A program made the translations under genes and the position numbers. Under the pieces are notes generated by a model. That model worked only from the letters and a program-made list of their open reading frames with translations. It had not been told where the DNA came from and made no database searches. Below, in pieces: positions 380 to 35,437 of a stretch of DNA of 53,916 bases. Source of the stretch: Candidatus Gugararchaeum adminiculabundum (GTDB taxonomy: Archaea > Micrarchaeota > Micrarchaeia > Burarchaeales > Gugararchaeaceae); assembly GCA_902384795.1 (NCBI GenBank), contig CABMDC010000016.1, positions 1 to 53,916 of the forward strand. Reading direction: 5' to 3'. Position 1 is the first letter of the stretch. Every line of letters begins with the position of its first letter.

Positions 380-411
380 TTTTTAGTTTTTCTTTCTCTC
401 CATTCGGGGCC
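380..411 (-). repeat. Partial copy (C) of the intercistronic element, hairpin missing
   Basis: On the minus strand this reads GGCCCCGAATGGAGAGAAAG followed by an A-rich tract. It starts three bases after the TAA (416-414) of the upstream array gene. It matches the core of the 54-bp repeat (CCCCGAATGGAGAGAAAG) but lacks the hairpin segment. The A-rich tract then continues for about 65 nt to the ATG at 314. Confidence 0.8.
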
Positions 412-413
412 GA

Positions 414-8499: not shown

Positions 8500-8603
8500 G
8501 TGATGGCGCCGCCGATATGGCGGTTGCGTTCTGGAGAACGCAAGTCTGCCCTCGAAGCAGACCAATCGTGCTTCGAAGCACGATTGCCGCGGCGCGCCAT
8601 CAC
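8500..8603. other. Multi-hairpin element: closed by a 10-bp stem and filled with four hairpins
   Basis: Bases 8500-8509 (GTGATGGCGC) pair perfectly with 8594-8603 (GCGCCATCAC). Inside are four hairpins: 8510-8522 (CGCC/GGCG, 5-nt loop), 8524-8543 (TTGCGTTC, loop TGGA, GAACGCAA), 8544-8562 (GTCTGC, 7-nt loop, GCAGAC) and 8563-8586 (a 24-nt perfect palindrome, CAATCGTGC stem around TTCGAA). The last three abut with no linker. It could be a structured RNA, a MITE-like element with terminal inverted repeats, or a cruciform-forming site. It sits in the 187-bp gap between two minus-strand genes. No coding potential is evident. Confidence 0.85.
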
Positions 8604-11846: not shown

Positions 11847-12389
11847 ATGCGCTTACGCAAAGGCTCAACGGCTCCGTCATCCTGGATTTGGATTATCGGC
11901 GGGCTAATTTTAGCGGTGATTACCATAGCCATAGTCTGGCAATTGTTCGCAAACATGAGCCTGGGCTTTGCACGCAACAATGCGAGAAGCGAATTCCAGA
12001 ATTTCGTGGGCAGGGTTGAATCGATGTGCTCCAGCGTTTCCGTGGGCTCGAAAATGACATTTGAAATGAAACTGCCGAACGTGGTGGAAGCGGCCTATGC
12101 TTCCATTTCCCCGGGATTTGTCCCTGGGAATATCACGGAGTTCGTGGGAAGCCCGTACAATACCGGCGGGGTTTCAAACGGCGATTATGTGTGCATGAAA
12201 CTGCAGGGGGAAACAGAGCCCAGGTGCGAGAAGCTTGACTGCGATGTCACCATGAATTATCTGGGAACGCCGCCTGCCGGGAGCTTTTTCGACCAGATGC
12301 AAAGGGCGGCCGGCTCGCAGAATTTCGAGTATGAAATCACCATTGAAAAACAGGGAAGCACGATTATGGTCTATGACAAGAGAAAGTGA
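11847..12389 (+). CDS. Pilin-like anchored secreted protein
   Basis: 180 aa. A short basic n-region (MRLRKGS) is followed by one hydrophobic helix (about residues 12-33) and an extracytoplasmic domain with four cysteines (CSS, VCMK, RCEKLDC). The signal lacks the perfect Q.S.E motif, so it may be a plain signal anchor or a divergent prepilin. It is the first of three co-oriented genes (to 13975), the next being 72 bp downstream. Like its neighbours it has one N-terminal helix and a soluble outer domain, the plan of minor pilins. Not recognised beyond that. Confidence 0.7.
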   Translation: MRLRKGSTAPSSWIWIIGGLILAVITIAIVWQLFANMSLGFARNNARSEFQNFVGRVESMCSSVSVGSKMTFEMKLPNVVEAAYASISPGFVPGNITEFVGSPYNTGGVSNGDYVCMKLQGETEPRCEKLDCDVTMNYLGTPPAGSFFDQMQRAAGSQNFEYEITIEKQGSTIMVYDKRK

Positions 12390-32890: not shown

Positions 32891-32944
32891 TCAGCCTCTC
32901 TTTCTTTAAAAAAGAAAGAGACCCCGAATGGAGAGAAAGAAAAC
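32891..32944 (+). repeat. 54-bp intercistronic repeat, copy B
   Basis: Identical over 54 bp to the minus-strand sequence at 1563-1616. It begins two bases after the TAA of the KaiC-like gene, contains the 10-bp-arm hairpin (CTCTTTCTTT / AAAGAAAGAG), and ends in CCCCGAATGGAGAGAAAG before the pilin-like gene. Confidence 0.95.
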
Positions 32945-32974
32945 TAAAAAATGTATCCATATATTGGTGCAAAA

Positions 32975-34366
32975 ATGGGGATGAAAAACGGTCAGGCGTC
33001 AGTCGAATTGGTCGTGCTTCTTGCCGTAGCGCTGTTCATACTCGGCGCGGTCGTGATTGTTGCCAATAATGAGATACGGGCGTACAATGCGCTCCAGGAA
33101 AAAAACAAGGCCGAGCTGGCGGTGAAGCAGATTGTCACCGCCGCGGACCAGGTCTATTTGCAGGGGAGCGGGGCGAAAAAGAAAATCTGGGTCGAGCTCC
33201 CGGGAGGGATAAGCTCGGCGAACGTGAGCGGCCATTATGTTTCCCTGCGCGTAAGGGGCTCTGATACTTCCCCCTATTCATCAAAAGGCGAGCTCTATGG
33301 AACTGTGCCGCCGGAAGAGGGGGGGCACTGGCTCTGGGTTGTTTCATCGGGGAACAAGGTAAGGATCGGGTCCGTGGATTTGGACATAGACCCCACCCTG
33401 CTGGTGGTCTATACGTTCACCTCGAATTTCGACCAGTATTACCAGAAGAGCTTCAAGGTTTCCAATGTGGGCGTTTACAATGAAACCGTTGATGTGCTGA
33501 TTGTCTGGGATGAGGCGAATGTGACGGTCAGGATAAACAACACGGCAAACCGCTTCACCCTTGCGCCCGGCGCCAGCAGGACCATACTGGTCGACTTTTA
33601 CACGACCGCGAGTTCCATCGGGTCTTTCAACGGGTACATAAGAATGAACTCCAGCAAGGGGGACGAGGCGCGGGTCGACCTGGCGGTCAACCTGGTGAAC
33701 CAGGAATGCGTGCGATGCAGCGAGCTTGTGGCCGGATGCGTGCCGGCGTATTATGAGATCAAGACTTTTGCCAATTCGGATTACTCGGTGGAAAAAACAG
33801 CGTTTGACCCGGGGGAAAATGTCTATTACTCGGTGAGGAATTACAAGGAGAACGGGGTGCTTTCAAACACCCCTCTCCGTGTGAAAATATCCGACCCGGT
33901 GGGCAACCTGACCCAGGAAATGGACGTCTCGACCTGGAACGCGACAGGGACCTACCTGAACTTTTTCCAGGTGCCGGACGTGCCGCTCACTGGGGCGTGG
34001 AACATCACGGTTTCGCACTGCACGGTGGGAACGGGAAAATTCTACGTGGGCACGGGCACCCATGAGCTTAACAGGATTGAAATCAGCGAGCCTGAAAGGA
34101 AGAGCTATGCTTTTGGAGAACTGGTCGGAGTGCGGTTCAGGATTGAGAACCTGCAGGGCGTGGGAGTGGCGGGCCTGAATAGCGAGGAAAGGATGATGCT
34201 CGATGTGGGGGACGGGAACAACTATGTCACGGATGTCATTGATTTGGGAGGAGGTACCTACAACTTCTCCTATGTGCCCGTCAATGCGGGAGTGAACAAG
34301 ATCAGCGTCACTGCGAACAACACGCGGGTGAATGTCACTGCTGAAAAAACAATTTATGTTTCATGA
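32975..34366 (+). CDS. Large class III pilin-like protein
   Basis: 463 aa from the ATG at 32975, five bases after a GGTG SD; the ATG at 32951 is possible. MGMKNGQASVELVVLLAV is a clear class III prepilin signal with the Q.S.E motif, so EppA-type cleavage before Gln is expected. The long helix continues (LQEKNKAELAVKQIVTAADQVYLQG) and then beta-sandwich modules follow (about 70-460), including a Pro/Gly-rich segment with four cysteines (ECVRCSELVAGC). It overlaps the next gene by 4 bp (ATGA). A tip or adhesive pilin is a reasonable but unproven reading. Confidence 0.85.
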   Translation: MGMKNGQASVELVVLLAVALFILGAVVIVANNEIRAYNALQEKNKAELAVKQIVTAADQVYLQGSGAKKKIWVELPGGISSANVSGHYVSLRVRGSDTSPYSSKGELYGTVPPEEGGHWLWVVSSGNKVRIGSVDLDIDPTLLVVYTFTSNFDQYYQKSFKVSNVGVYNETVDVLIVWDEANVTVRINNTANRFTLAPGASRTILVDFYTTASSIGSFNGYIRMNSSKGDEARVDLAVNLVNQECVRCSELVAGCVPAYYEIKTFANSDYSVEKTAFDPGENVYYSVRNYKENGVLSNTPLRVKISDPVGNLTQEMDVSTWNATGTYLNFFQVPDVPLTGAWNITVSHCTVGTGKFYVGTGTHELNRIEISEPERKSYAFGELVGVRFRIENLQGVGVAGLNSEERMMLDVGDGNNYVTDVIDLGGGTYNFSYVPVNAGVNKISVTANNTRVNVTAEKTIYVS

Positions 34367-35341: not shown

Positions 35342-35366
35342 TCAGCCCCGAATGGAGAAAGAAGAA
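35342..35366 (+). repeat. Shortened copy (D) of the intercistronic element
   Basis: TCAGCCCCGAATGGAGA at 35342-35358 follows the TAA (35337-35339) after two bases. It equals the 54-bp repeat with the hairpin segment removed. An A/G-rich leader of about 70 nt then leads to the next gene. Confidence 0.85.
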
Positions 35367-35437
35367 ATGGATGAAGGGAAAAATGAGGAAAAAAGAAAAA
35401 TGGAGAATAGATGAAGAGAAGGAAAGGAGAAATGAAA

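Follow-up and report, generated by a model that had tools for sequence, protein, structure and literature searches.

A mirrored purine third arm in a short archaeal repeat: a candidate mobile element that may fold as an intramolecular triplex

The repeat at positions 32891-32944 of the window (the whole 53,916-nt stretch of Candidatus Gugararchaeum adminiculabundum DNA that was analysed) consists of a pyrimidine-purine hairpin followed, across a short spacer, by a further purine arm that matches the hairpin in mirror order. We propose, with a probability of roughly 0.5, that it is a small mobile element under selection to form an intramolecular triplex, and that the copies without a hairpin are recurrent losses; at about the same odds, its copying or insertion would use the three-strand fold of its single strand. 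The proposal draws on several features of the sequence: the anatomy of the element, the exact mirror match, co-variation of all three arms, sense orientation, duplicated flanks at part of the copies, and recurrent hairpin loss at nearly the same junction.

Anatomy of the element and its mirrored arm

Full copies have the order TCAGCC / Y1 / loop / R2 / CCCCGAATGG / R3, where Y1 is a pyrimidine arm and R2 and R3 are purine arms. In the copy at 32891-32944 (plus strand, ~54 bp), TCAGCC (32891..32896) begins 2 nt past the stop codon of the upstream gene, a KaiC-type ATPase by domain match (PF06745; 32157..32888, plus strand). A hairpin scan places Y1, TCTCTTTCTTT, at 32897..32907 and the loop AAA at 32908..32910; R2, AAAGAAAGAGA (32911..32921), is the perfect Watson-Crick partner of Y1, giving an 11-bp stem with a 3-nt loop (TCTCTTTCTTT-AAA-AAAGAAAGAGA). 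The 10-nt spacer CCCCGAATGG (32922..32931), with complementary ends (CC..GG), leads to R3, AGAGAAAGAAAA (32932..32943), which mirrors R2 at 11/11 positions, against a longest direct match of 7; all of these parts are read on the plus strand.

A second full copy with the same arms lies on the minus strand at 1563-1616, directly after the stop codon of a gene ending at 1617. Two short copies, TCAG-CCCCGAATGG-AGAAAGAAGAAA (35342-35367, plus strand) and TCGG-CCCCGAATGG-AGAGAAAGAAAAA (387-413, minus strand, directly after the stop of a gene ending at 414), keep R3 and have no hairpin. A sequence-only reading of this DNA had noticed the core pattern, two copies with the hairpin and two without, and it holds; the hairpin that it described is real, with arms of 11 bp rather than the 10 bp given. 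We also agree that no U-tract follows the hairpin, since what comes next is, in every copy, CCCCGAATGG and a purine tract, and that the repeat is not a simple terminator: a hairpin and then a U-tract, as in an intrinsic terminator, is not what we found. What that reading overlooked is that the tract after CCCCGAATGG is a third arm, matching the hairpin in mirror order.

The search for further copies covered all 26 contigs of the genome (1.47 Mb). With the 12-mer core and at most one mismatch there were 15 matches, ten belonging to the family and five with no purine arm next to them; a looser purine-tailed pattern gave 12, namely the same ten, the full copy C1:82010 and one unrelated match. The family thus comprises 11 copies, seven full and four short. 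Their lengths are bimodal, and the genome-wide comparison of copies gave no sign of the graded distribution that would speak against a modular repeat, so the modularity claimed earlier stands. The 12-base core alone, with two mismatches allowed, is not significant (chance mean 6.0): the significance resides in the whole element. The window holds two pyrimidine-purine hairpins of at least 10 bp, both with a mirrored third arm, while 60 dinucleotide shuffles of the window produced no such hairpin and no mirrored third arm. Rfam gave no match to the element at gathering score, with sub-threshold matches only, at E up to 1, and RNA folding of the copy at 32891-32944 (z -2.66) adds little beyond the hairpin.

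In all seven full copies, which represent five arm types and have hairpin loops of 2-3 nt, R3 is an exact mirror of R2 across the whole arm (10-12 nt), and each R3 fits its own arm type only. The longest mirror and direct matches per full copy are 11/7, 11/7, 10/7, 12/7, 12/10, 12/8 and 11/9; a direct-repeat order of R3, as a switch would have, was tested throughout and loses to the mirror order. Pyrimidine-purine-purine tracts, a stem above 7 and a third tract mirroring the second, which together define an intrastrand triplex, were found in 7/7 full copies. Copying yields direct or inverted repeats, not mirror repeats, whereas a purine third strand obeys mirror order. The order found here fits a purine strand running antiparallel along a purine-pyrimidine duplex, which leads to the reading as an intramolecular triple helix. 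On the complementary strand a matching pyrimidine-motif triplex could arise; because either strand could fold, the folding strand is not given by sequence alone.

A full copy would then be a ~54-bp non-autonomous mobile element folding on itself in three strands: Y1 and R2 would pair as a hairpin, the short turn CCCCGAATGG, with its complementary ends, would return the strand, and R3 would follow the stem as a third, purine strand running antiparallel to R2, with A on A-T and G on G-C. We infer that this triplex physically forms, probably as DNA rather than RNA, on single strands exposed in replication, transcription or transposition, and that the fold would serve the copying or insertion of the element rather than a host gene. 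Among purine-motif triplexes, those with much A-A-T are regarded as less stable than G-rich ones, and the A-rich arms of this element weigh against the triplex reading. The accessible text of Holder et al. 2015 (PMC4666352) likewise rests the stability of purine-motif triplexes on G-G-C.

The short copies bear on the history of the repeat. What they retain is TCAG or TCGG, the spacer and an R3; Y1, loop and R2 are gone. Three of the four share an identical junction (TCAG or TCGG + CCCCGAATGG) with four Cs left, as would remain if a deletion ran from one CC pair at the foot of the hairpin to the other, and the fourth has three Cs. Their R3 arms are of types otherwise seen in full copies, which makes loss of the hairpin simpler than gain. 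Most simply, the short copies would represent at least three separate hairpin losses from full copies: dead remnants of elements that lost their hairpin, the likely cause being slippage of the polymerase from one basal CC pair to the other. In part they could be read or assembly losses at the hairpin. The earlier suggestion had been the reverse, a free cassette of ~27 bp put into a short repeat, and the R3 that the short copies keep, matching the hairpin in every full copy, does not sit well with it. A separate hairpin cassette entering a resident short repeat would explain the exact TCAG/TCGG + CCCCGAATGG junction in three of the four short copies, and palindromes do nest in a second repeat family of this genome; nevertheless we find it improbable, as the incoming hairpin would have to fit a pre-existing R3 in every copy, across five arm types, and among spacer-selected loci in relatives none of 30 lacks a stem.

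The same design and co-variation of three arms in relatives

A 441-kb sample of the own genome (window included) together with ~0.89 Mb from 11 relatives contained several long pyrimidine-purine hairpins with a 3' mirrored purine arm, often in or beside tRNA genes, as well as other hairpins with no mirrored arm. The exact-arm pattern together with the family spacer was found in this genome only (1/98 in the relatives set; 0 in a further contig search); what the relatives have in common is the architecture and not the spacer. Pattern searches of 246 genomes of the class recovered CTTTCTTT..AAAGAAAG hairpins in 61 genomes and CCTTTTCTT..AAGAAAAGG hairpins in 38, and the same patterns read backwards were nearly absent from these 246 genomes.

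Of 60 class loci, 36 have a third arm of at least 8 close to the hairpin; the far flank holds one in 2 loci and the other strand in none. Mirror order was better than direct order in 32, worse in 7 and tied in 21. The ties, and the fact that the arms are A-rich and partly symmetric, are what chance matching of low-complexity A/G tracts in purine-rich intergenic DNA would predict. We nevertheless consider such chance matching very improbable as a full account, given the empty window shuffles, the 2/60 and 0/60 at the control positions, and the following tests of co-variation.

In the co-variation searches the first pyrimidine run is fixed (T3 or T4, flanked by Cs), with no constraint on the third arm. 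In two sets from this class of Micrarchaeota, the presence of A3G or A4G in R3 is predicted by C-T3-C or C-T4-C, respectively, in Y1. The first set comprised 60 loci, 48 with one clear orientation and 12 set aside as ambiguous or with no third arm: T3 was accompanied by A3 in 20/25 and by A4 in none, and T4 by A4 in 21/23 and by A3 in one (Fisher 8e-11). The second set, 61 hairpins in 60 further loci picked among those listed, left 49 oriented hairpins after 12 were set aside for the same reasons: T3 was accompanied by A3 in 21/31 and by A4 in 2, and T4 by A4 in 18/18 (Fisher 9e-10). These p-values overstate independence, as many loci are related by descent (L133 and L134 are one site in two genomes). 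Where the T-runs of Y1 are of unequal length, the third arm follows the mirror order in 56 cases, the direct order in 1 and neither in 8.

A third set was selected by the spacer CTGAGGGTTTCACCCC of one subfamily, with 30 loci taken of at least 49 places in 20 genomes. Run lengths match in 19/19 scorable loci of the 30, six of the 19 being new and T5 with A5G among them. The co-variation rule holds across several arm types and spacers. In 7 of the 30 loci a GGGGA..TCCCC stem occupies the same frame, and an A-rich third arm is found in none of these seven; an A-rich stretch lies near two other G-first stems. The seven (L327-L329, L344, L346, L355 and L356) have ends CCCATAT + CTGAGGGTTTCACCCC, and in most of them the third position is CCCCCT, which could be a pyrimidine-motif counterpart. 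At L126, 3' of a tRNA-Ala gene, spacer and third arm (CCTCGG-AAAAAAGAAAGAAA) stand twice in tandem.

In vitro, intramolecular triplexes are a familiar structure; to our knowledge, evidence for their selection in cells is thin, because most examples are a consensus or simple repeats. Co-variation is the kind of evidence that established Watson-Crick RNA stems, and here the third strand changes stepwise with its hairpin from copy to copy and from genome to genome, so that selection for a triple helix can be put to the test. We tentatively extend the reading to the whole class, as a possibility rather than an expectation: sense-inserting mobile elements of Micrarchaeota may use an intramolecular triple helix as their working structure, evolution having kept the three strands matched. 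If this is true, natural co-variation over many genomes, and not one consensus, demonstrates selection for a triple helix, and triplexes are tied to the spread of tRNA introns; the element may then help to explain how unusual tRNA introns spread in tiny archaea.

Placement, strand and mobility

All 11 copies in the genome follow the 3' end of, or sit inside, a gene of the same direction: seven begin 0-6 nt past a stop codon (two of these face a convergent gene), two lie in frame within lysine-rich reading frames (C1:82010 was read by eye), and two stand behind duplicated gene starts. For the relatives, tRNA genes were assigned by deleting the element and re-running ARAGORN at 96 oriented class loci. 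This assigned 36/96 loci to a tRNA gene, with 34 of the 36 in sense orientation (L136 and L313 are antisense), and left 60 unassigned; a few loci labelled as inside a tRNA actually adjoin one, for example L306, where the tRNA start is duplicated. At part of the loci the restored tRNAs carry insertions in the T-loop and the anticodon loop, and several class loci lie directly 3' of a tRNA. GTTC(A/G)A occurs within 32 nt 5' of the hairpin in 38/96 loci and at the mirror position in 0/96. With tRNAs interrupted in this way splicing is needed, and the genome encodes a splicing endonuclease of 395 aa that matches ARMAN-2 EndA over its length (E 3.8e-128). In the accessible parts of PMC12397907 and PMC4033280, the ARMAN-2-type (epsilon-2) endonuclease is reported to tolerate introns of varied structure.

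Since the orientation of the copies and their tie to tRNA genes suggest a part played in transcripts, action as RNA is a serious alternative, which we hold possible and yet doubtful. The Y1-R2 hairpin, a small spacer hairpin and the purine arm would form a compact fold that guides splicing or protects 3' ends, with third-strand docking or a switch between Y1-R2 and Y1-R3 pairing as variants; within tRNA genes, the element would be the body of an intron cut out by the broad-specificity endonuclease. The strong sense bias (34/36 tRNA-assigned loci, 11/11 own copies) and the placement in tRNA genes may fit an RNA role equally well, and the interrupted T and anticodon loops, the one-sided GTTCRA and the endonuclease gene agree with it. 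In contrast, mirror order (56 to 1, with 8 neither) is useless for ordinary Watson-Crick switching, all-RNA purine-motif triplexes are reported to be unfavourable, and four own copies have no hairpin. A G-U wobble at one stem position was matched once in the 246 genomes (10-base arms, loops of 2-8), against 94 perfect hairpins, a summed count, in 38 genomes under a shorter pattern (9-base arms, loops of 2-12). A scan for hairpins with one mismatch returned mostly slips at tract ends and few interior cases, and does not separate RNA from DNA. If the repeat is instead a mobile element with a triplex fold, its sense orientation would be kept by the insertion route or by selection.

We give little credence to a third account, in which a U-rich arm after a stop codon or tRNA end halts the polymerase as a terminator or attenuator and the hairpin tunes the downstream gene. 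It would suit the seven own copies that begin within 6 nt of a stop codon and the relatives' copies directly 3' of a tRNA; however, many copies interrupt a tRNA gene at its anticodon or T loop, and a stop at that place would leave no intact tRNA, the T-runs are broken by C, the mirrored third arm is not needed, and two own copies lie in frame inside reading frames. The related proposal of the sequence-only reading, that the cassette sets processing, attenuation or mRNA stability for the downstream pilin-type gene, finds no support, as position and strand are fixed to the upstream gene and the design recurs within tRNA genes of relatives. The downstream gene itself (32951..34366, plus strand) has a pilin-like N-terminus by eye; its product of 471 aa carries an MG2 domain behind the hydrophobic N-terminus, which suggests a larger surface protein rather than a simple pilin.

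Duplicated flanks are clear at three to four of the 11 own copies: C12:62340 at a gene start (score 37), C20:51661 at atpD (21.5), C1:82010 at a lysine-rich gene (19) and the short copy C7:23338 (16), against 110 swapped flank pairs with a mean of 8.5, a 95% level of 13.05 and a maximum of 19.5. At these four the duplications are direct and long, and the left copy ends 0-5 nt ahead of TCAGCC; the remaining seven copies, with scores of 6-9.5, have no flanking duplication. Of 93 class loci, 10 score at least 14, compared with 1.0% of 2309 swapped pairs, and here too the target-site-type duplications are long and of variable length; loci with a duplication include L306 (tRNA-Arg start) and L185 (gene start, read by eye). 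The element after atpB is absent in all 14 relatives listed (of 80 loci found), and at the atpB end the nearest of the 14 resembles the duplication's left copy, which a recent insertion would lead one to expect. At the window locus, the KaiC neighbour has at most 52% identity in the relatives listed, so that an empty-site comparison is not possible there. Long flanking duplications and an empty site in relatives apparently point to mobility; the seven own copies with no duplication, and a lone Y1 transposase gene with no copy beside it, speak against it. At L133, L134, L270 and L275, a short C/D-box-like sequence (GTGATGAGAAACTGGAGCTCTGAG in L133 and L134) adjoins the element on its 5' side and recurs on the 3' side, forming a duplication that spans the insert.

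Known systems and neighbouring repeat families

REP elements have a GTAG-type head. The present element resembles MITE- and REP-type repeats in being short, multi-copy, hairpin-forming, non-coding and apparently mobile, and differs from them in its long and variable duplications and, from REP, in having no GTAG-type head. TCAGCC..AAAAC has no terminal inverted repeats, and a search for a linked Y1 transposase found a single such gene in the genome with no copy beside it; we therefore set aside both a MITE, defined by terminal inverted repeats and a related transposase, and a REP/IS200 partnership.

The closest likeness is to the bacterial intrastrand triplex repeats (PIT elements, Hoyne and Maher; TMECO, PMC4666352), which, as far as the accessible text describes them, consist of a pyrimidine stem, loop, purine stem, loop and mirror purine stem, and are repeated, mostly outside genes, and missing or mutated in some related loci. 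Holder et al. 2015, in the same accessible portion, describe related loci that lack the TMECO motif and offer replication slippage for the losses. The differences are several. The archaeal element is A-rich where the bacterial ones are described there as G-rich, and its sense is fixed, whereas no strand bias is given for TMECO. Its arms vary between copies yet stay matched, and it lies in or beside tRNA genes and has long flanking duplications. Its second loop measures 10 nt, and about 6-21 nt in relatives, whereas that of TMECO has 3 nt; of the limits quoted in PMC4666352, its hairpin loop of 2-3 nt and 10-nt spacer fall within the 0-10 nt of Hoyne, and the spacer exceeds the 1-6 nt of ITxF. 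The TMECO sequence family (CCCTCNCCC-N3-6-GGGNGAGGG-N3-GGGNGAGGG) does not include it, the arms being A-rich and the loops different.

Two likenesses concern archaeal tRNA introns. Transposed introns of Thermoproteales (Fujishima et al. 2010, as cited in the accessible text of PMC4033280) are inserts that resemble one another and occupy canonical as well as non-canonical positions in different tRNAs, and the accessible part of PMC12397907 associates non-canonical introns in ARMAN with the epsilon-2 endonuclease, the type that this genome has. Unlike such introns, the element also occurs outside tRNAs, after stop codons and in reading frames, and it has a mirrored third arm and flanking duplications; its splicing is predicted from sequence. 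Our search of the open-licence literature found no description of an archaeal element of this design.

Two further repeat families were seen. The first, CCTTTTCTTT..AAAGAAAAGG-CTGGTCGAAYCC-AAAAGAAA, has six copies in the own genome (L052-L057); three of the six lie 3' of tRNA-Pro, -Ala and -Val, and the spacer resembles a tRNA T-arm. In L053 another palindrome sits inside the hairpin loop, and a tRNA-Trp gene (L038, ~11852-11875) has a predicted long intron made of an element of this family and further palindromes. The other family is palindromic: perfect hairpins of 9-12 bp, with loops resembling TCGA, stand in groups of two or three, several of them after GCCAACGAGC; a hairpin scan located such groups at 8524-8586 of the window, L032 12430, L043 19828-19893, L045 16365-16431 and L047 11521-11580.
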